From Acidobacteriota bacterium (GTDB lineage Bacteria > Acidobacteriota > Terriglobia > Acidiferrales > UBA7541), in assembly GCA_003167215.1 (NCBI GenBank), contig PMTV01000040.1:74410-126215 (forward strand): a stretch of 51,806 nt of DNA, given 5' to 3'. The position numbers and the translations under genes are program-made. Position 1 is the stretch's first letter. Each line of letters starts with the position of its first letter. Below the pieces are notes generated by a model that saw only the letters and a list, made by a program, of their open reading frames with translations, was not told where the DNA came from and did no database searches. Shown piece by piece: positions 40,082-51,161 of this stretch.

Positions 40082-42361
40082 TCAGCTGGGGGAGCTATGT
40101 GCAGCCACAAGCGCCTGGCCGAGGCTCAGACCCCCGTCGCCCGCGGAGACTTCGGAATGTGTGAAAACTTCAAATTCGTCGGATTCCAGTTTGCAAATCA
40201 ACTGTTCAAAAACAAGTGAGTTGTTGAATGTACCGCCGCTCAAGCAGATCTGATTGATCGAGGATTCTTCTCGCAGCAAGCGTGAGAGGCGCACGAGAGT
40301 ATCCACCAGTCCGTTGTGAAATCGTCGGCTGATTGTTTCCGTGCCCACCTTCTGGCGGAGATCTTCGACGATGGCGCCGAACAATGCCGAGGAGTCGATC
40401 AGCCAGCACCTGTTCTCGCGGCGAATGGCGAAGGGATAGCCAGCCGTCTCGCACGACGACCGTCCCGACATTTCCAGTTCCATCGCGGCCTGTGCTTCGT
40501 AACTCACTTCTTGCCGAATCCCGATCAACGCCGCGACGGCATCGAACAAACGTCCGCAACTCGACGTCAAGGGAGAATTCACTCGCTGGTCCATCATGCG
40601 CAGGATCAGTTCCGCCCTCCCGCGCTCAAGTCGCTGCACGAAAGGAATGTCCAGGCCGAGGAAATCCTCGCCAAAAGCCTGCGCCAAATAACTCACCGCC
40701 ATCCGCCACGGTTCATGGATCGCTGCGGCAGCCCCAGGCATCGGTACGTACGCGAAATGGGCGCCCCGTTCAAAGCCTCCGCCATCGGCATAAAGCGCTT
40801 CGCCACCCCAGATATTGCCGTCCTTTCCGTAGCCTGTGCCATCGAGCACGAGTCCGATGACCCGCCCCTCGACTCCATTTTCCGCCAGGCAGGATGCGAT
40901 GTGCGCATGGTGGTGCTGAACTCCCACGACTCGGACGCCCTTCTGTCCAAGCGCCCATTTCGTCGACAAATAATCGGGGTGAAGATCGTGCGCGATGATT
41001 TCCGGTTCGATTTCGAGGATCCTCGAAAGATGGGAGATGGCATCGTGGAAGAAGTCGAGACTCTCGACGTTTTCGAGATCGCCGATATGCTGGCTCAGGA
41101 ACGCGAGGTTGCCGCGCGTCAGGCAGATCGTATTTTTCATCTCCCCGCCGACCGCAAGAATTTGCGGGAGTTCTTTGTGCAGTCGAACCGGCGCCGGCAC
41201 GTAGCCTCGCGACCTCCGTATCTGTCGCAGCCTCCCGGCCGAATGACGAACCACAGAATCGTCGCAACGGAGGAGAATCTCGCGGTCGTGCACAAGAAAG
41301 CAATCGGCGATGCCCCCTAGTCGATCCACCGCCTCGCGGTTTCCGATCGCAATCGGTTCTTCACTCAGGTTTCCGCTGGTCATGACCAACGCCGCGAATT
41401 TGCCTGCCGCCATGAGCAGATGGTGAATCGGGGTATACGGCAGGAAAATCCCGAGGTCGCGTTGGTTTGGCGCCACGCTTTCAGCAATCGCGGCGCCTTC
41501 AATTTTGGGCAACAGCACGATGGGCCGCTGACGGCTGGTCAGAAGTCTTCGTGCTTCAGCATCGATATCGCAAAATCGCGCCGCAGCTTCCAGATTCCGC
41601 ACCATCACGGCAAACGGCTTCGCAACGCGCCGTTTGCGCTCGCGCAGCCGTTCCACGGCGGCCGCGTTTACGGCATCTGCCGCGAGGTGAAATCCCCCGA
41701 GTCCCTTGACGGCGAGTACCTCGCCCAATCGAAGGTGCTCCACCGCCGCTTCGACGGGATCGCTGGCCGCGAGCGCGTGCCCTTGAGGGTTCCAGAATTC
41801 GAGCTGCGGGCCGCATTTCCAGCAGGCATTCGGCTGCGCGTGGAAACGTCGGTCTTCCGGGTCCTCATATTCCGCGCGGCATTGCTCGCACATCGGGAAC
41901 CCCGACATCGAGGTGCGCGGCCGGTCGTAGGGTACATCCCGCAAGATTGTGAAGCGTGGTCCGCAATTTGTGCAGTTGATAAAAGGATAGTGATACCGGC
42001 GGTCCCGAAGGTCGAACAGCTCCCGAACACAGTCTTCGCACGTTGCCACGTCCGGAGCGATCAGCGCGCTCACGTGTTGGCCGGTATGGCTAGACCTTAT
42101 TTCAAAACCTCGATCCAGCCGGCACGCCGTCTCGCGGACGGATACCTGGGTAATCTGTGCTAGCGCCGGCGCATCCTTCGGGAGGCGCGAGACGAAATCC
42201 TCAACCAGCTCCTGCGGGCCCTGAATTTCGATCGAAACTCCTGCCGCCGTATTGCGGATGTTCCCGCCGAGTTTGCGATCGGTCGCAAGACGATAGACGT
42301 ACGGCCGGAACCCGACTCCTTGCACGATACCGGCGACCTGGATTTCCTTGCGGACTTGCAT
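40082..42361 (-). CDS. hypF: [NiFe]-hydrogenase maturation carbamoyltransferase HypF
   Basis: A 759-residue multidomain protein. N-terminal acylphosphatase domain (about 1-90, 'GIVQGVGFRPYVYRLA'); two zinc-finger pairs (about 105-180, 'CEDCVRELF...CTNCGPRFTI' and 'CEQCRAEY...CWKCGP'); a YrdC-like domain (about 200-380, 'LAVKGLGGFHLAADA', 'KPFAVMVRN'); and a Kae1-like carbamoyltransferase domain with 'HDLHPDYLSTKWA' and 'VQHHHAHIASCLAENG' supplying metal-binding histidines. It makes carbamoyl-adenylate and loads HypE for cyanide ligand synthesis. It is the last gene of the hydrogenase operon, 6 nt after hypB, with no strong Shine-Dalgarno, suggesting coupled translation. Confidence 0.96.
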   Translation of the reverse strand: MQVRKEIQVAGIVQGVGFRPYVYRLATDRKLGGNIRNTAAGVSIEIQGPQELVEDFVSRLPKDAPALAQITQVSVRETACRLDRGFEIRSSHTGQHVSALIAPDVATCEDCVRELFDLRDRRYHYPFINCTNCGPRFTILRDVPYDRPRTSMSGFPMCEQCRAEYEDPEDRRFHAQPNACWKCGPQLEFWNPQGHALAASDPVEAAVEHLRLGEVLAVKGLGGFHLAADAVNAAAVERLRERKRRVAKPFAVMVRNLEAAARFCDIDAEARRLLTSRQRPIVLLPKIEGAAIAESVAPNQRDLGIFLPYTPIHHLLMAAGKFAALVMTSGNLSEEPIAIGNREAVDRLGGIADCFLVHDREILLRCDDSVVRHSAGRLRQIRRSRGYVPAPVRLHKELPQILAVGGEMKNTICLTRGNLAFLSQHIGDLENVESLDFFHDAISHLSRILEIEPEIIAHDLHPDYLSTKWALGQKGVRVVGVQHHHAHIASCLAENGVEGRVIGLVLDGTGYGKDGNIWGGEALYADGGGFERGAHFAYVPMPGAAAAIHEPWRMAVSYLAQAFGEDFLGLDIPFVQRLERGRAELILRMMDQRVNSPLTSSCGRLFDAVAALIGIRQEVSYEAQAAMELEMSGRSSCETAGYPFAIRRENRCWLIDSSALFGAIVEDLRQKVGTETISRRFHNGLVDTLVRLSRLLREESSINQICLSGGTFNNSLVFEQLICKLESDEFEVFTHSEVSAGDGGLSLGQALVAAHSSPS

Positions 42362-42367
42362 GATGTT

Positions 42368-43042
42368 TCAACAGGCGGCGGCCGCAGCGCGCGAGACTTT
42401 CCGCTTGCGATCCAGCCAAGAGAGCCATTCCGCCATTCCCTCGCGGGTCTGGCAGGACACCCGAACGATGTCCATATCGCGGTGGATACTCCTCGCGTTC
42501 GCTTCGGCAGCAACGACATCGAATGGCACGTAGGGCAGAAGGTCGATCTTATTCAGGATCAGCAGTTCCGACTTATGAAAGATCGAGGGATATTTGAGCG
42601 GCTTGTCTTCTCCCTCCGTCACGCTGAGAACAACGATTTTCGCCGATTCGCCCAAATCGTAGCTTGAGGGGCATACGAGGTTTCCCACATTTTCGATCAT
42701 CAGCAGGTCGAGATCTTCCAAACGCCAATCGAGAAGCGCCCGTTCGATCATCCGGGCGTCCAGATGGCATGTCCCGCCGGTCGTAATTTGCCTTACGGGA
42801 AACCCAAAGCGGGCCAAGCGTCTCGCATCGTTTTCCGTCTGAATGTCTCCGGTAAGAACTGCCACTCGTTCGCGACGATCGAAGCTTTCCAGGGTTCGTT
42901 CGAGCAGGCTGGTCTTCCCGGATCCCGGTGAACTAATCAAGTTCAGGCACAGAATATTGGCTGCTGCAAAGCGCGCCCCCAAACTGGCGGCAATGCGGTC
43001 ATTCTCGCTCAAGACTTTACGCTCGAGTGGCACGCGTTCCAT
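42368..43042 (-). CDS. hypB: Hydrogenase nickel-insertion GTPase HypB
   Basis: A 224-residue SIMIBI-class GTPase. P-loop 'SSPGSGKTSL' (37-46), 'VAVLTGDIQTENDARRL' with the switch Asp, the metal site 'TTGGTCHLDARM' (Cys and His), 'IENVGNLVCPSSYDLG' (dimer/metal Cys) and 'LNKIDLLPYV' for guanine specificity. It lacks both the N-terminal CxxCGC high-affinity nickel motif and the His-rich nickel-storage stretch of some HypBs. The ATG at 43042 is preceded by GGAGGT and starts inside the hypA gene (26-nt overlap). It hands nickel to the large subunit together with HypA. Confidence 0.95.
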   Translation of the reverse strand: MERVPLERKVLSENDRIAASLGARFAAANILCLNLISSPGSGKTSLLERTLESFDRRERVAVLTGDIQTENDARRLARFGFPVRQITTGGTCHLDARMIERALLDWRLEDLDLLMIENVGNLVCPSSYDLGESAKIVVLSVTEGEDKPLKYPSIFHKSELLILNKIDLLPYVPFDVVAAEANARSIHRDMDIVRVSCQTREGMAEWLSWLDRKRKVSRAAAAAC

Positions 43043-43382
43043 CTTCGACCTCCAGATAGGCGAGCTCCAGTTCGTCGCCTCCCAAGAATTGAGAATCCCG
43101 CACGCCGCAGTCCGGACATGCCAAATCTTCCTTGGGTGCAGCATAGGAGCGCCCACAGGATCGACACTGATAACGACGCGCGCAGAATTCAATTTCGAGT
43201 GCCAGCGGCTCAAGTTCCGTCCCACGCACGAGAGCTTCAAAACAAAAGCTCATCGCGTCCGGGTCCACTCCCGCGAGTTCGCCGATCCGCACGCCCACCT
43301 TGTAGATGTGGCGGGCCGGGAAGCGCCGTCTTTCCGCGCGAACCGCATCCAGCACCGAATTGGCAATACCGATCTCGTGCAT
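43017..43382 (-). CDS. hypA: Hydrogenase nickel chaperone HypA
   Basis: A 121-residue protein. The N-terminal 'MHEIGIANSVLDAV' holds the nickel-binding Met-His-Glu, and the zinc site is made by two CxxC pairs (Cys73/76 in 'CRSC', Cys89/92 in 'CPDC'). It delivers Ni(II) with HypB. The ATG at 43382 gives the correct MHE start; a TTG one codon earlier is not needed. It begins 10 nt after hypE and overlaps hypB. Confidence 0.95.
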   Translation of the reverse strand: MHEIGIANSVLDAVRAERRRFPARHIYKVGVRIGELAGVDPDAMSFCFEALVRGTELEPLALEIEFCARRYQCRSCGRSYAAPKEDLACPDCGVRDSQFLGGDELELAYLEVEDGTRATRA

Positions 43383-43392
43383 CAACCGGCCC

Positions 43393-44454
43393 TCAACAGA
43401 TTCTTGGCAATTGATCGCCGGAGAGTAGATCGACGATCCGCGATGTACCCAGCCGCGTGCGTAGCGTAACCATCCCTCGATGGGAGTCCGTCACCGTTCC
43501 AATGATCCTGGCGTCGCGGCCCAACGGATGCTGGCGCATGGCTTCGAGAATGGATTCCTCAGCAGCGGGCTCGACGACCGCCACCAGCTTGCCTTCGTTG
43601 GCCACATACAGGGGATCAAGACCCAGCATCTCGCAGGCGCCTTGGACTTCATCGCGGATGGGAATCGCACTTTCCTGCAGCTCGATGCTCACGTTGGATC
43701 GCTCTGCAATTTCATTCAGCGAACTCGACAGTCCGCCCCGCGTCGGATCCCGTAGACAGCGGATAGCGCCGCTCGCCCGCAGCATATCTGCTACCAGACC
43801 GTGCAGCGCTGCCGTATCGCTGTGAACCGCGCTTTCAAATTCGAGGCCTTCCCGTTGGGACAGAATCGTAATTCCGTGATCTCCAATGGTCCCGCTCAAC
43901 AGCACGAGATCCCCGGGGCGCGCCCGATCAGCGGAAAGTCGCACGTCGGATGAGACCAGTCCGATTCCGGAGGTATTTACAAACAATCCGTCGCCGTTCC
44001 CTTTTTCGACTACCTTCGTGTCTCCCGTGACGACGACAACGCCCGCAAGAGCAGAGGCGACGCGAATGGATTCCATGACCCGCCGGAGAGTATCAAATGG
44101 AAGCCCTTCTTCGAGGATGAGTGCGAGACTCAGGAAAAGGGGTTTCGCGCCGCCCATCGCTAGATCATTTACGGTACCGTTCACCGCCAGCGTTCCGATA
44201 TCACCACCGGGGAAAAATAGCGGCTTCACGACAAAGGTGTCCGTGGTAAACGCAATTCGCGATCCGTCGACATCTACAATGGCTTGGTCATCCAGGCGAT
44301 CGAGGACGGGATTTTGCAGAGCTGGAAGAAGGATCTCGCGCAGGAGCTTCGCGCTCATTCGCCCCCCGCTTCCATGGCCCAACAGGATAGACTCCGTTGC
44401 CGCGATCGGAACCGGACAATTCAAAGCAATGTCGAGTTTCGTTTCTTGACGCAT
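43393..44454 (-). CDS. hypE: Hydrogenase cyanide-ligand maturation protein HypE
   Basis: A 353-residue PurM/AIR-synthase-like ATPase. N-terminal 'LLGHGSGGRMSAKLL', the ATP region 'TTDTFVVKPLFFPGGDIG', 'VNGTVNDLAMGGAKPLFL', 'GDTKVVEKGNGDGLFVNTSGIG', and the invariant C-terminus PRIC, whose last Cys is carbamoylated by HypF and dehydrated to the thiocyanate that donates CN. Its ATG shares one base with the hypD stop (TGATG), so it is tightly coupled. Confidence 0.96.
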   Translation of the reverse strand: MRQETKLDIALNCPVPIAATESILLGHGSGGRMSAKLLREILLPALQNPVLDRLDDQAIVDVDGSRIAFTTDTFVVKPLFFPGGDIGTLAVNGTVNDLAMGGAKPLFLSLALILEEGLPFDTLRRVMESIRVASALAGVVVVTGDTKVVEKGNGDGLFVNTSGIGLVSSDVRLSADRARPGDLVLLSGTIGDHGITILSQREGLEFESAVHSDTAALHGLVADMLRASGAIRCLRDPTRGGLSSSLNEIAERSNVSIELQESAIPIRDEVQGACEMLGLDPLYVANEGKLVAVVEPAAEESILEAMRQHPLGRDARIIGTVTDSHRGMVTLRTRLGTSRIVDLLSGDQLPRIC

Positions 44455-45563
44455 CAGCGATTCGCCTTCGCCGTTAGCGCGTGTCGCCGATATCGGTAAT
44501 AAGCCGCACAGGCACCTTCGGAGGACACCATCGGAGCGCCCAGAGGATTTTCCGGAGTACAACGCGTCCCGAACGCGGAACAATCCATCGGTTTCTTGAG
44601 TCCCTGAAGCACTTCTGCGCTAATGCACTCCGCGGGCTCGTCCGCGGCCACACCTTCTGTGCCAAAAATACGATCCGCATCGAATGCGGAATACTCTTCG
44701 CGGAGATTAAGACCACTCTCCCGAATTCCGCCGATTCCGCGCCATTTGCGATCGCAGACTTCGAACACTTCTCGCAGTACCTTCTGAGCGAGGAGATTCC
44801 CTTCGTAGGATGCGGCGCGCACGTACTGGTTTTCGACCTCCGCGCGCCCTTCTTCCAACTGTTTCACCAGCATCAGGATCGCTTCCAGAAGATCGAGCGG
44901 CTCGAATCCGCCCACAACAATCGGCACGCGGAACTCCCGGATGAGTTCTTCATATTCGCGATAGCCCATGACCGTGCACACGTGGCCCGGACCAATGAAG
45001 CCTTGCACGCGATTGCGCCGTGAACCTAACAGCGCTCGAATCGCGGGCGGCACCAGGACGTGGGAGGCCAGCATCGAAAAATTCCCAAGTCCTTCTCGCT
45101 TGGCTTGCCAGACAGCCATGGCGTTCGCGGGAGCGGTCGTCTCAAAGCCGATGGCAAAGAACACCACTTTTCGCGCGGGATGGGCGCGCGCGAACTTGAG
45201 AGCTTCGGTCGGAGAATAAACCACGCGCACGTCTCCGCCCTGAGCCTTCACATGAAACAGGTCAGTGCGTGAACCCGGTACGCGCAGCATGTCTCCATAA
45301 GAAATTAAAGTCACATCAGGACGCGAAGCGATCTCAATCGCCTTATCGATCGTTTCCAGAGAGGTCACGCACACCGGGCATCCGGGCCCATGAACGAGTT
45401 CAATTCCGGCGGGCAGCATCTCATCAATGCCATAACGCATCAGAGTGTGGGTTTGCCCGCCGCAAATCTCCATGAGTACCCAGGGCCGTGTAGCGCGACG
45501 GCCCAGCTCGGCCACAATTCCGCGCGCAATTTTCTCATCCCGGTATTCGTCCAAATACTTCAT
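44454..45563 (-). CDS. hypD: Hydrogenase Fe(CN)2CO assembly scaffold HypD
   Basis: A 369-residue iron-sulfur protein. Conserved motifs: '[10 protein letters not shown]' (Cys34), '[14 protein letters not shown]' (Cys62/65), '[14 protein letters not shown]', '[12 protein letters not shown]', '[14 protein letters not shown]', and a C-terminal cysteine set ('VCDRKW', '[26 protein letters not shown]') that binds the [4Fe-4S] cluster. It forms a complex with HypC where CN and CO are attached to iron. The ATG follows AAGGAG and is 30 nt after hypC. Confidence 0.97.
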
Positions 45564-45593: not shown

Positions 45594-45866
45594 TTACTGC
45601 TCTGCTTGCGACTCTTCGAGCTCCGACTCCAGTTCGCCGTTGAGTAGTCCCATGGCTTCGAGCGCCTCATAACTCCGCTCAGCCTCTTCCCGGTCCACAA
45701 GGCTGATGGCGAATCCTACATGCACAATCACGTAGTCTCCGATCGACGCCTCTGGTACGAAGTCCAGGCAAGTCTCCCGCGTGATTCCTCCAAACTGAAC
45801 GCGTCCCACGCGAATTCCGTTTTGCAGTTCGCTACTAACGATCTTTCCCGGGATGGCGAGGCACAC
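45594..45866 (-). CDS. hypC: Hydrogenase assembly chaperone HypC
   Basis: A 90-residue HypC/HupF-type chaperone. The N-terminal 'MCLAIPGKIV' has the essential Cys2, and the OB-fold core 'GRVQFGGITRETCLDFV' and 'GDYVIVHVGFAISLVDREEA' is complete. A short acidic tail follows. The start is GTG with AAGGAAG upstream, 1 nt after the hyaD stop. It carries the Fe(CN)2CO unit from HypD to the large subunit. Confidence 0.96.
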   Translation of the reverse strand: MCLAIPGKIVSSELQNGIRVGRVQFGGITRETCLDFVPEASIGDYVIVHVGFAISLVDREEAERSYEALEAMGLLNGELESELEESQAEQ

Positions 45867-45867
45867 G

Positions 45868-46440
45868 TTAAACGCTTCCTTTTTCGCAAGGCTCGGAAAC
45901 TATCCGGTCCGAGTGTTGGCCACGCGGCAAGGCTGATGGTTGGAACTTCAAACCACGATCCGGTGATTCCTTCCAGAGATTCAACTGCGCCACCGCTGCA
46001 TCCACCAAGAGCACAAGGGCAGCCTCGACCTCGGGAGACAGGGTTGTGCCCCAATCGGTATTGGCAGGCTGCACGCCCAAGACAACAATCTCCTGAGGAC
46101 CGCTCGACACCAGGAACAGGGCGGCAATCAGATCGGCAACACCCAGCTGATGAACGCTTCTTCCTGCTGTCGTACCCAGCAAATCTTTTCCGGTCATTCG
46201 GGCGAGGGTTCCGGGTGCTTTGCCCGAGTTCATGGCGTCTAGGATCAATATCCGGGGGGCATCCGAAGCATACGGAATCAGCTCAAGACCGAGAGTGCCG
46301 CCATCCAGAATCGTCACACCCGCCGGTACTCGCGGATCACTCTCGAGCAGCCTTGCAGCATGCACGCCAACGCCCTCGTCAGAGAGGATCGTATTGCCCA
46401 CCCCTATCACCACTGTGTCCGAAAACCGGAAGTCTTCCAT
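45868..46440 (-). CDS. hyaD: Hydrogenase large-subunit maturation endopeptidase
   Basis: A 190-residue HyaD/HupD-type protease. The nickel-sensing residues are visible: 'IGVGNTILSDEGVGVHAARLL' (Glu), 'ILILDAMNSGKAPGTL' (Asp) and 'SVHQLGVADLIAALF' (His). It cuts the C-terminal tail of HyaB after nickel insertion. The ATG is 1 nt after the hyaC stop. The C-terminus is about 25 residues longer than in E. coli HyaD. Confidence 0.93.
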   Translation of the reverse strand: MEDFRFSDTVVIGVGNTILSDEGVGVHAARLLESDPRVPAGVTILDGGTLGLELIPYASDAPRILILDAMNSGKAPGTLARMTGKDLLGTTAGRSVHQLGVADLIAALFLVSSGPQEIVVLGVQPANTDWGTTLSPEVEAALVLLVDAAVAQLNLWKESPDRGLKFQPSALPRGQHSDRIVSEPCEKGSV

Positions 46441-46441
46441 G

Positions 46442-47239
46442 TCACGCTCTGGATTGGGAACTTTGTTCAGCAGCCGGCCTTGCTTCCCGGAGAACCTCGG
46501 CGTCCTCGTCGTTCTCTTCGGCGAGGGCCTTCCGCAGTTCATGCTCGGGAACGAATTTGTAACCGCTGAAGATGCTTTCCATCACACCATTTTCCTCTTC
46601 GATCGAAACCAGGATGGCTGTGTAGAGATGGTGAATGAAGAACATCCAGAACACGAACATCACCAGGAAATGAATTTCGCGAAGCCACTGAATGTCAACC
46701 AAGTGCGGAAGCCATCCGAAGAAGAAGCTGACGACCCGATTGCCTAAAATCCGCGAATAGAGCGCGAGTCCGGTTAGTATCTCAACCAATGCCAATCCAT
46801 ACATAACGGCATAGGAAGCGCCGGCCAGTGCGTTGTGACCGATGTGGGGAGTTGGCGACCAGACCATAAAGCCGTAATACTTCCCGGTCTCAGCGATATC
46901 CTTCAGGCGTTTTCTGGTTACCGGGATGAACTGATCCCAATGTGACCAGCGGTTTCCGATAAACATCCAAACGATCCGTATCAGAACCGCGCCAAGAAAC
47001 GCGAAACCGGAGAGCAGATGGACGAACCGCATCGTTCCCATCACGTAGGCGGTTCTTCCATGCGGAACGACAAACGGGGAATGCATGTAATAGCCGGTGA
47101 TCGAGAGCGAGACGATCGTGGCGAAAATGATCCAGTGCGCAAATCGCACCGGCCATTCCCAGACGTACACCCTCACTTGCCCGTGCGCCGGCCTCTTCCA
47201 TTCCGTCTCTTGGCCATGTCGCCTTTGTGTCTTTTTCAT
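46442..47239 (-). CDS. hyaC: Ni/Fe-hydrogenase b-type cytochrome subunit
   Basis: A 265-residue membrane cytochrome b with four helices. Haem-ligand type histidines sit in 'WEWPVRFAHWIIFATIVSL' (helix 1), 'MRFVHLLSGFAFLGAVLIR' (helix 2) and 'LREIHFLVMFVFWMFFIHHLY' (helix 4), and 'GYYMHSPF' follows helix 1. It anchors the small subunit and passes electrons from H2 to the quinone pool. The ATG at 47239 is preceded by AGAGGG; a TTG two codons earlier is in frame. It lies 18 nt after hyaB. Confidence 0.94.
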   Translation of the reverse strand: MKKTQRRHGQETEWKRPAHGQVRVYVWEWPVRFAHWIIFATIVSLSITGYYMHSPFVVPHGRTAYVMGTMRFVHLLSGFAFLGAVLIRIVWMFIGNRWSHWDQFIPVTRKRLKDIAETGKYYGFMVWSPTPHIGHNALAGASYAVMYGLALVEILTGLALYSRILGNRVVSFFFGWLPHLVDIQWLREIHFLVMFVFWMFFIHHLYTAILVSIEEENGVMESIFSGYKFVPEHELRKALAEENDEDAEVLREARPAAEQSSQSRA

Positions 47240-47257
47240 ACGCAACCCTCTGCCCGA

Positions 47258-48967
47258 TCAGGCTTCTGCGCGTGCGAGCACATGCCCTCGAGCGTCAACT
47301 ACGTGAACGGCGCAAGCGAGGCAAGGATCGAAGGAGTGAACCGTGCGCAGAATTTCGAGCGGACGTTCCGGATCCGCGACCGGTGTCTTGAGGAGTGCCG
47401 ATTCATACGGTCCCCGCTGTCCTCGTGCATCTCGCGGCCCGGCATTCCAGGTAGACGGAACGACGGCCTGGTAATTCTTGATAGCCTGGTCTTCGATCTC
47501 CACCCAGTGCCCGAGCGATCCGCGCGGCGCCTCAAAGAAGCCGAAACCCTGCGCGGTCTTGGGCCACGAGTTCGGGTTCCACTTTTCCCCGTTGTGAATG
47601 CGCACATTCCCACTCGCCAAATTATCTCCAAGTTGTTCGATCCAGCCCACCAGACGGCTCGCGAGCAGTTGCGTTTCAAGAGCGCGCGCCGCCACGCGCC
47701 CCAGCGTCGAAAATAATGCGGCGGGCGGAGCCTTGAGTTTTCCGAGCGTCGCATCGACCAGAGCTTTGACCTCCGGCTGACCCGAAGCGTACGCAACGAG
47801 GAGCCGTGCGAGCGGGCCGACCTCCATCACTTGGTCTTGATACCGCGGAGCCTTCAACCAGGAATATTTTTCATTCACCTCGAGGAATTCATAAGGGGGT
47901 TTCGGTCCCGAGTATTTCGGATTGGTTTCTCCGTTATATGGGTGCCTGGCGGCTTGGTCACCGCCCGAATATTCGTACCAAGAATGGGTCACATATTCCG
48001 TGACATTTGCGGGATCGACTGGGTGAACCTTGGAGAGATCACGGTCCAGGACGATCCCTCGCGGAAGAAAAAAGTCCGCAGGATCTTTGATGGAACCTTG
48101 GGGATAACCGCCATAGCACATGTAATTCCCAACTCCCGTGCCCAGCTTGAACCACTCGGGATAAAAACTCGCCACGGCAAGAACGTCGGGAACGTACACC
48201 TGATTCACAAACCCGATCGCCGACTTGGCCACCTGCACCAGAAAATCCATTCGTTCGGGGTTGATTGTCGCGCCCGGCTCGTTCGGATCCATGGCCGTGG
48301 CCATGCCGCCAACCAGGAAAGTCTGCAAGTGAGGATTCTTGCCGCCAAGAACTGCGTGAATCCGGATGAATTCCTTCTGGAACTGCAGCGCTTCCAGGTA
48401 ATGCGCGACGGCCATGAGGTTCGCTTCGGGCGGAAGACGGTAGGCCGGATGTCCCCAATATCCGGCGCCGAACAAGCTCAGTTGTTTGCTCGCAACCAAG
48501 GCGCTGACGCGGTCTTGTACACCCTTGAAATATTTCTCACTCGACACCGGCCAATCGGAGATCGATTGCGCAAGCTGCGCTGTCTTTGCCGGGTCCGCCT
48601 TGAGAGCGGAGAGGATGTCCACCCAGTCCAGGGCGTGCAAATGGTAGAAATGGATTACGTGGTCCTGGATCGTTTGCGTCGCGGCGATGATGTTGCGCAC
48701 CAAGCGCGCGTTGTCGGGAATTTCGATGCCCAGCGCATCCTCGACCGCGTTGACCGAAGCGAGCGCGTGGACCATCGTGCAGACGCCACAGATGCGTTGC
48801 GCCCAGATCCAGGCTTCGCGCGGGTCGCGGCCGCGCAAGATGAGCTCGATGCCACGGAACATCGTGCCGGAACTCCATGCGTCCGAGATCGTTCCGCCTT
48901 CGACTTGCGCTTCGATGCGGAGATGTCCCTCTATTCGCGTGACCGGATCCACCACAATCCGCGCCAT
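47258..48967 (-). CDS. hyaB: [NiFe]-hydrogenase large subunit (group 1 type)
   Basis: A 569-residue catalytic subunit. The N-terminal L1 motif is 'RICGVCTMVHA' (Cys60/63) and the C-terminal L2 motif 'DPCLACAVH' (Cys549/552), giving all four cysteine ligands to the NiFe centre. The 14 residues after His555 are the tail removed by HyaD. Other family stretches are 'EGHLRIEAQVEGG' and 'SLGHWVEIEDQAIKNYQAVV'. It catalyses H2 oxidation/evolution in the periplasm. The ATG has GGAGGA upstream and is 9 nt after hyaA. It travels through the Tat system with HyaA. Confidence 0.97.
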   Translation of the reverse strand: MARIVVDPVTRIEGHLRIEAQVEGGTISDAWSSGTMFRGIELILRGRDPREAWIWAQRICGVCTMVHALASVNAVEDALGIEIPDNARLVRNIIAATQTIQDHVIHFYHLHALDWVDILSALKADPAKTAQLAQSISDWPVSSEKYFKGVQDRVSALVASKQLSLFGAGYWGHPAYRLPPEANLMAVAHYLEALQFQKEFIRIHAVLGGKNPHLQTFLVGGMATAMDPNEPGATINPERMDFLVQVAKSAIGFVNQVYVPDVLAVASFYPEWFKLGTGVGNYMCYGGYPQGSIKDPADFFLPRGIVLDRDLSKVHPVDPANVTEYVTHSWYEYSGGDQAARHPYNGETNPKYSGPKPPYEFLEVNEKYSWLKAPRYQDQVMEVGPLARLLVAYASGQPEVKALVDATLGKLKAPPAALFSTLGRVAARALETQLLASRLVGWIEQLGDNLASGNVRIHNGEKWNPNSWPKTAQGFGFFEAPRGSLGHWVEIEDQAIKNYQAVVPSTWNAGPRDARGQRGPYESALLKTPVADPERPLEILRTVHSFDPCLACAVHVVDARGHVLARAEA

Positions 48968-48976
48968 GGATTCCTC

Positions 48977-50098
48977 CTACGCGCCGCGAGACTCCGGCGG
49001 TTCTTTTGTTTCTTCTGCGGTCTTCTTCGGCCGAAGTTTGTCGCGCACCATATTGCCGGCGACCTGCGCGACCATTGCCGCGCCCACTGCCGCTGTGGCG
49101 ACCCATCCGATCTCGTCGGCGGTCACGTCCACTCCGAACCCGGGCACCGACGGCAAGCGCTTATAGAACGGTGATTTCGTATCCCAAAAACGGTGCGAAG
49201 CACAGGCGATGCAGCCGTGGCCGGACTTCACCGGCCAACTCGTGCCGTCATTCCAGCGGACCGTGGGACAGTTGTAAGTCGCTTCCGGGCCTTTGCAGCC
49301 CATCTTGTAAAGGCAATAGCCCTTGCGATGGCCTTCGTCGCCCCACTCCTCCACGAAACGTCCCGCATCGTAGTGCGCGCGGCGCTCGCATTGATCGTGA
49401 ATGATGTCACCGTAAGCGAATAGCGGCCGGTTGTATTCATCGAGCGCAGGCAGATCATGGAACGTCAGATAATGGACCAGGACCGCTGCGGTGTTCGCGG
49501 GGTTATGTGGGCATCCTCCCAGATTGATGAGGTTCTTCAATCCCGGAACTGCTTCATGCAAGCCCAGGGCCCCGGTAGGGTTCGGGTTCGACCGTACCAA
49601 TCCGCCGTCCCAGGCGCACGCACCTACCGCGATATTGGCGGCGGCTTTGCTGCAAACGTGTTTGGCGATGTCCAGCGCGGCCTTGCCTCCGATCGTGCAG
49701 TAGACGCCGCCGTCGGCAGTTGGAATTGCGCCCTCCACCACGGCGATGTACTCGCCGGCGTGTTCGCGAACAACACGTTCGAGTGCGTCTTCCGCCTGCT
49801 TCCCAGCACCGGCCATCAACGTTTCGTGATACTCCCAAGACAGCAGATCGAGAACAAATTCTGCAACCGGGGGGTTGCTGCTGCGCAGCATGGATTCCGT
49901 ATTGCCTGCACAATCTTGAAACTCAAGCCACACCAGAACCGGACGGCTTGCCTGAGTGAGCGCCTTCACAACCGCGCCGAGATATCGCGGAGGCAGCGCC
50001 AGAGTAGCGACCATCGAGCTACAAAACTGCACGAATTCACGGCGCGAAACCCCGCGCGATTTCAGCGCAGCCGTTAAACGTGTTCTCGGTGAATGCAT
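48977..50098 (-). CDS. hyaA: [NiFe]-hydrogenase small subunit with Tat signal (variant proximal cluster motif)
   Basis: A 373-residue FeS subunit. Tat twin-arginine motif 'SRREF' (18-22) and a hydrophobic stretch to about 50. The proximal cluster motif is CAGN (Cys63-Asn66) where most group 1 enzymes have CxxC; the other proximal ligands are Cys161 and Cys196. The distal cluster ligands His234, Cys237, Cys262, Cys268 and medial Cys277, Cys296, Cys299 are all present. A C-terminal membrane helix (about 331-350) would anchor it to HyaC. The extra cysteine of O2-tolerant CTCC-type enzymes is absent. The ATG follows GGGGGGATACTA. First gene of the operon. Confidence 0.95.
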   Translation of the reverse strand: MHSPRTRLTAALKSRGVSRREFVQFCSSMVATLALPPRYLGAVVKALTQASRPVLVWLEFQDCAGNTESMLRSSNPPVAEFVLDLLSWEYHETLMAGAGKQAEDALERVVREHAGEYIAVVEGAIPTADGGVYCTIGGKAALDIAKHVCSKAAANIAVGACAWDGGLVRSNPNPTGALGLHEAVPGLKNLINLGGCPHNPANTAAVLVHYLTFHDLPALDEYNRPLFAYGDIIHDQCERRAHYDAGRFVEEWGDEGHRKGYCLYKMGCKGPEATYNCPTVRWNDGTSWPVKSGHGCIACASHRFWDTKSPFYKRLPSVPGFGVDVTADEIGWVATAAVGAAMVAQVAGNMVRDKLRPKKTAEETKEPPESRGA

Positions 50099-50249: not shown

Positions 50250-50318
50250 CACAGCTGTGGTGGAGAGCACTGTAGTTCATGGGTCGAGATGACAGCTTAG
50301 GTACAAGAGGTGCGTGCC

Positions 50319-51161
50319 ATGCAGAGACGTTCTAAGAAGCGGCACTTTAACGGTAGAGAGGCAAGGACCCTATTCGGGCACCCGGTTAACGAGCCGCTCG
50401 GACATCTGAGCGCCCGCTACCCGTTTCCCGCTCGTTTGAACGAGCGGTACGTGGAAAGACTGAAGGCATCGAATGTCGGGAAATTGTATCCGAAGGGGGC
50501 AATTCTTTACGACGAGGGAGACAAGCCCACCGGTGTCTATGTCGTCTTGGACGGGCGCGCCAAGCTTTCCGTGAATTCCTTAAGCGGCAAGACGCTGCTG
50601 CTCGGTTTCTTTGGCCCGGGCACGATCTTGGGATTGGCTTCTGCCATCTTGGGACGCACCCATGCGGCCACTGCGGAAGTCATGATTCCGACCAAGGTCG
50701 TGTTTGTGTCTCGCAAGGAACTGGTGAGAGAAATGCAGGGCGATGCGATGGCAGCTCGGCAAGCGGCGGAACTCGTGAGCGAGGCCTGCTATTTCATTTT
50801 GGCGAAGATGAGGGCCGTCGAGCTTTCCGAATCCACTGGGCAAAAGCTTGCACGTTGCTTGCTGGGATTGCTCGCTCACAATATAGGTTCCAGCGGTGAA
50901 GCAGCTCTGCAACTGGATCTGAGCCAGGAAACCATCGCGCAGATGGTCGGACTTTCCCGAGAAACCGTGACTCGGCTGATGTCCCGATTCCGCAGGGAAC
51001 ACATTGTGGACTGGAAACGTTCCGGGCTCATCATTCAAAACCGAAAGGCGCTCGAAAGACTCGCCGATTTTTCGGAGACAGACACGAGTTTCGCGGGAAA
51101 CGTTGCTGCGCAGAGAGTCGCCTCGACCAGTGGTGAGTTGCGTCCGCGTTCAACAAACTGA
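50319..51161 (+). CDS. Crp/Fnr-family transcriptional regulator
   Basis: A 280-residue regulator. A cyclic-nucleotide-binding-like domain (about 55-165) has 'LYPKGAILYDEGDKPTGVYVVLDGRAKL' and 'ILGLASAILGRTHAATAEV'. The phosphate-binding-cassette Arg is kept but the Glu that contacts cAMP ribose in E. coli CRP aligns with Ile. A long dimer helix and a winged HTH follow. The HTH contains 'SQETIAQMVGLSRETVTRLMSRF', in which the CRP DNA-contacting Arg, Glu and Arg of the recognition helix are all kept. There is no Fnr-type cysteine cluster near the N-terminus. The ATG at 50319 has AAGAGG upstream. It is divergent from the hydrogenase operon and very probably controls it. Confidence 0.93.
   Translation: MQRRSKKRHFNGREARTLFGHPVNEPLGHLSARYPFPARLNERYVERLKASNVGKLYPKGAILYDEGDKPTGVYVVLDGRAKLSVNSLSGKTLLLGFFGPGTILGLASAILGRTHAATAEVMIPTKVVFVSRKELVREMQGDAMAARQAAELVSEACYFILAKMRAVELSESTGQKLARCLLGLLAHNIGSSGEAALQLDLSQETIAQMVGLSRETVTRLMSRFRREHIVDWKRSGLIIQNRKALERLADFSETDTSFAGNVAAQRVASTSGELRPRSTN

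Follow-up and report, generated by a model that had tools for sequence, protein, structure and literature searches.

The window, i.e. the whole stretch of 51,806 nucleotides that was analyzed, very probably encodes a membrane-bound uptake [NiFe]-hydrogenase of the ordinary group 1f type from an aerobic acidobacterium, HyaABC with its own HyaD and HypABCDEF, in which the asparagine at the proximal cluster of the small subunit is the normal state of the family. The substitution is already known: since it is the normal published state of group 1f, and also that of Huc, its occurrence in this hyaA is ordinary. The features on which this reading is based are given below, with residues in the numbering of translation P0001.

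48977..50098, minus strand: hyaA, [NiFe]-hydrogenase small subunit, with Tat motif SRREFVQF and a C-terminal hydrophobic segment (translation P0001)
49901..49912, minus strand: proximal-cluster motif Cys-Ala-Gly-Asn (TGT GCA GGC AAT), Asn codon AAT at 49903-49901
49616..49618, minus strand: proximal ligand Cys164, invariant alignment column
49511..49513, minus strand: proximal ligand Cys199, invariant alignment column
49202..49399, minus strand: distal ligands H237, C240, C265 and C271 and medial ligands C280, C299 and C302 with P292, invariant columns
47258..48967, minus strand: hyaB, catalytic large subunit (PF00374, 770.6 bits), L1 RICGVC and L2 DPCLACAVH intact
46442..47245, minus strand: hyaC, b-type cytochrome that anchors the enzyme in the membrane and accepts its electrons (TIGR02125, 125 bits, above cut-off)
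45868..46542, minus strand: hyaD, maturation protease (TIGR00072, 131 bits, above cut-off)
45594..45866, minus strand: hypC (TIGR00074)
44454..45563, minus strand: hypD (TIGR00075)
43393..44583, minus strand: hypE, open frame that probably starts downstream of the TTG listed for it (TIGR02124)
43017..43385, minus strand: hypA, open frame MMHEIGIANSV..., identified by eye alone
42368..43240, minus strand: hypB, open frame that probably starts further downstream (TIGR00073)
40082..42361, minus strand: hypF (TIGR00143, 828.8 bits)

HyaABC is the only [NiFe]-hydrogenase of the assembly, which also encodes four full-length haem-copper oxidases; no match to cytochrome bd was found in the genome. Just upstream of hyaA and divergent from it, positions 50310-51161 encode a Crp/Fnr-family regulator (cNMP-binding and Crp helix-turn-helix domains), which may control the hya operon.

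The product of hyaA matched the small-subunit profile TIGR00391 at 396.5 bits, above the cut-off, as well as PF14720 and PF01058. Counted from the ATG at 50098 the motif runs from Cys63 to Asn66, and in P0001, which has three extra leading residues, from Cys66 to Asn69. It aligned with C17/C20 of R. eutropha HoxK, placing Asn opposite the second proximal Cys (C20) of HoxK and of E. coli Hyd-1. An earlier note on this DNA had read CAGN with AAT at 49901-49903, three Cys left for the proximal cluster and the remaining cluster ligands intact, all of which held: the codon lies on the minus strand inside the hyaA frame, and C66, C164, C199 and all distal and medial ligands are invariant across 56 group-1f-like Asn relatives. 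The ligands apart from the Asn/Asp site, the medial Pro and the distal His among them, are likewise invariant in 31 group-1f-like Asp sequences. An AlphaFold model from nine sequences (mean pLDDT 51.5) was too poor for use.

A total of 396 acidobacterial genomes were sampled, 99 of which had a small-subunit match, and twelve of the extracted small subunits read EFQDC[A/C]GN. When named public genomes were scanned with an alignment built from nine acidobacterial Asn sequences, 80 loci were recovered, spread over Acidobacteriota, Chloroflexota (Roseiflexus, Oscillochloris), Nitrospirota, Geobacteraceae, Myxococcota and a few Pseudomonadota, most of them with Asn at the proximal site. Of 171 small subunits, 77 had Cys at the second proximal site, 60 had Asn, 33 had Asp and one had another residue; relatives of the query are overrepresented in this sample, so the counts are not population frequencies. 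Asn was encoded by AAC 53 times and by AAT seven times. The earlier note had allowed for a sequencing error at 49901-49903, which the conservation of Asn in relatives contradicts. Relatives belonging to five or more phyla carry the same residue, which rules out sequencing or assembly error or chance, and a Cys codon (TGC/TGT) would need two base changes to become AAT. A decayed, non-functional hyaA copy, like an error, has a negligible probability, as the reading frame, the Tat motif, the remaining ligands and the operon as a whole are undamaged; no support for either was found.

To place the enzyme, a small-subunit tree was built without the Asn/Asp/Cys column. Asn and Asp small subunits formed one clade (98% SH-aLRT) including Geobacter, Geomonas, Nitrospirota, Myxococcota, Chloroflexota and Acidobacteriota, the last being closest to the query, with one four-Cys exception; the large-subunit tree agreed (clade support 95). 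The exception, L156 from Anaerolineales, carries CAGC and may be ancestral or a reversion. Asn is also present at L108 and L113, two Roseiflexus loci whose identity to tree row L107 is 87-90%. Asn or Asp was present at the proximal site in 87 of 88 sampled group-1f-like sequences, with Asn predominant in Acidobacteriota, Chloroflexota and Myxococcota and Asp in Geobacteraceae and many Nitrospirota. A single clade of all Asn rows was rejected (AU p about 1e-95); therefore Asn and Asp have interchanged within the group 1f clade.

An acidobacterial CAGN lineage (L045-L047 and L050) falls outside group 1f. Joining it to group 1f was weakly rejected by the large subunit (AU p 0.029) and was not rejected by the small subunit (p 0.33), for which reason a second origin of Asn outside group 1f is possible but not shown. 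Seven other acidobacterial sequences (L055, L058, L066, L067, L070, L073 and L078) read E[FL]QDCAGC, with flanks nearly as in group 1f, and retain Cys on another branch. Six sequences of the Asn type (L053, L125, L130, L136, L151 and L155, of which L053 and L130 are probably one contig) read CCGN, with an extra Cys right after the first ligand that could serve as an alternative ligand.

Assignment to group 1f is based on clustering with Geobacter and Roseiflexus enzymes. Enzymes of both genera are named group 1f in the literature, and the group is reported in Acidobacterium (PMC5364354, PMC5900883, PMC6776052). The query shares with Geobacter Hya and the Roseiflexus and Acidobacterium enzymes the Asn/Asp site, the Tat motif (here SRREFVQF), a b-type cytochrome partner (here TIGR02125, above cut-off) and the clustering of both subunits (PMC5364354, PMC5900883), and no difference of substance was seen. 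In A. ailaaui, group 1f is reported to act in the oxidation of H2 down to sub-atmospheric levels (PMC6776052, PMC7174314).

Other groups resemble the query in part. Group 2a Huc of M. smegmatis and cyanobacterial HupSL also have CxGN at the proximal cluster (HupS: PMC4070099), but HucS is distant, scoring 74 bits against the query, compared with about 300 bits for the best PDB matches, which are group 1 membrane-bound hydrogenases; the query is thus not of group 2a. Huc furthermore forms an octamer on the HucM stalk, cyanobacterial HupSL is without a signal peptide or transmembrane segment, and in Nostoc HupS Gln replaces His as distal ligand (PMC6616624). Group 1h, represented by HofK of R. 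eutropha (5aa5) and by acidobacterial 1h enzymes, is similarly non-Cys at the site but carries Asp (CDGD in HofK, as the earlier note had expected of this group), and the query is separated from it by its Asn, by a score of 71.6 bits for HofK and by its tree branch. The oxygen-tolerant group 1d enzymes (HoxK, E. coli Hyd-1) share the fold, the distal and medial ligands and the cytochrome b partner, but have a six-Cys [4Fe-3S] proximal cluster (CTCC) where the query has Gly68 and Gly169 at the places of the two extra Cys, which excludes it from group 1d. Because these cysteines are absent, the [4Fe-3S]/six-Cys mechanism of oxygen tolerance cannot apply.

The earlier note knew of no described Asn variant and expected Asp in group 2a, and the literature corrects it on both points. 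A 2016 paper describes Asn or Asp at this position in group 1f (Roseiflexus, Geobacter, Frankia), and Asn in group 2a and in mesophilic methanotroph HupS (Methylacidimicrobium) (PMC5364354). A mutational survey of 2014 records Asn in place of Cys at proximal position 2 of Nostoc punctiforme HupS, and the engineered C81N variant at the equivalent site of the A. macleodii hydrogenase was active (PMC4070099). M. smegmatis HucS, from a structurally solved enzyme, and a Roseiflexus group 2a small subunit aligned with it both read CSGN. The Roseiflexus group 2a small subunit at L189:1480-1944 contains in-frame TAG codons and is a pseudogene or an assembly error.

With only three Cys remaining, and with Asp at this place in group 1h, an altered proximal cluster and redox potential are a sensible reading of the motif. 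By analogy with Huc, which has the same CxGN, we infer a [3Fe-4S] cluster, or a [4Fe-4S] cluster with a labile, weakly held fourth iron; for the query enzyme, [3Fe-4S] is somewhat favored. A complete [4Fe-4S] cluster with Asn as fourth ligand (Cys3Asn), in which Asn would only shift the potential, is a serious contender at a little under even chances. The weakness of a neutral amide as a ligand of iron counts against it. So does Huc, the only solved structure found with this Asn, in which all three clusters, the proximal one included, are [3Fe-4S] by 1.52 A cryo-EM and EPR, a composition tied by its authors to the raised potential of the enzyme (PMC10017518). Conversely, a review citing Raleiras 2016 describes the proximal cluster of Nostoc HupS as [4Fe-4S] held by three Cys and one Asn (PMC6616624), the homologous substitution leaves the A. 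macleodii enzyme active (PMC4070099), and repeated interchange of Asn and Asp in the clade is as expected if both ligate. The slight lean to [3Fe-4S] over Cys3Asn is taken because the Huc precedent is a high-resolution structure of a complete enzyme.

Binding of the fourth iron by another residue, Glu125 or Cys137, is improbable. Glu125 aligned with position 76 of Hyd-1 and HoxK and is invariant in alignment A1, and its equivalent in E. coli Hyd-1, Glu76, binds the superoxidised cluster. Cys137 is Cys in all 60 Asn sequences and is often absent from Asp ones (raw Fisher p 0.0002), but it is also found in 69 of 77 four-Cys enzymes including HoxK, where it is not known to be a ligand, and its link with Asn reduces to two independent pairs on supported branches, which is not significant. 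Compensation by an extra Cys was rejected, as no alignment column holds Cys in Asn sequences alone: Cys152 also occurs in Asp forms, only 23 of 56 have Cys295, and Cys137 is widespread in four-Cys enzymes. The earlier note had held that CxGN throughout a characterized group, with four-Cys ligation through another Cys, would count against an unusual cluster; the former was found and the latter was not. Post-translational deamidation of Asn66, which would produce a Cys3Asp cluster like that of group 1h, is very improbable. Asp is the genomic state of many group 1f relatives, which speaks for it, but Asn-Thr is not a fast deamidation site. Furthermore, Huc, with Asn in its sequence, has [3Fe-4S] and not Cys3Asp (PMC10017518).

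Judging from its sequence, the enzyme is most likely an uptake hydrogenase of group 1f that is exported by the Tat pathway and anchored by cytochrome b. In Geobacter, enzymes of this group have a reported role in oxygen protection. H2 would be split at the NiFe site, presumably on the periplasmic side, and electrons would pass from the proximal cluster (three Cys and Asn) to the medial Cys3/Pro [3Fe-4S] and distal His/Cys3 [4Fe-4S] clusters, and from there through the b-type cytochrome and the quinone pool to the haem-copper oxidases. If the proximal cluster is indeed [3Fe-4S], the relay would sit at a higher potential, and the enzyme would tend to work in one direction only, oxidizing H2 at low concentrations in air.

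A more tentative and rather doubtful proposal is that the group 1f site toggles between a non-ligating Asn, with a [3Fe-4S] cluster, high potential and one-way H2 scavenging in air, and a ligating Asp with a [4Fe-4S] cluster. In a test of whether Asn accompanies an aerobic lifestyle, a full-length haem-copper oxidase was present in 42 of 46 Asn genomes versus 12 of 22 Asp genomes (Fisher p 0.001, a value not independent of phylogeny), and the association comprises only two independent pairs on supported branches and is not significant. Absence of an oxidase is weak evidence, because many of the genomes are incomplete metagenome bins.

Group 1f shares CxGN with Huc, an atmospheric-H2 enzyme of known structure, and Asn and Asp interchange inside one clade. 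A testable guess on cluster type follows for a widespread soil hydrogenase. Should the toggle be true, group 1f would represent a natural experiment, with a single residue determining both the cluster type and the H2 threshold.
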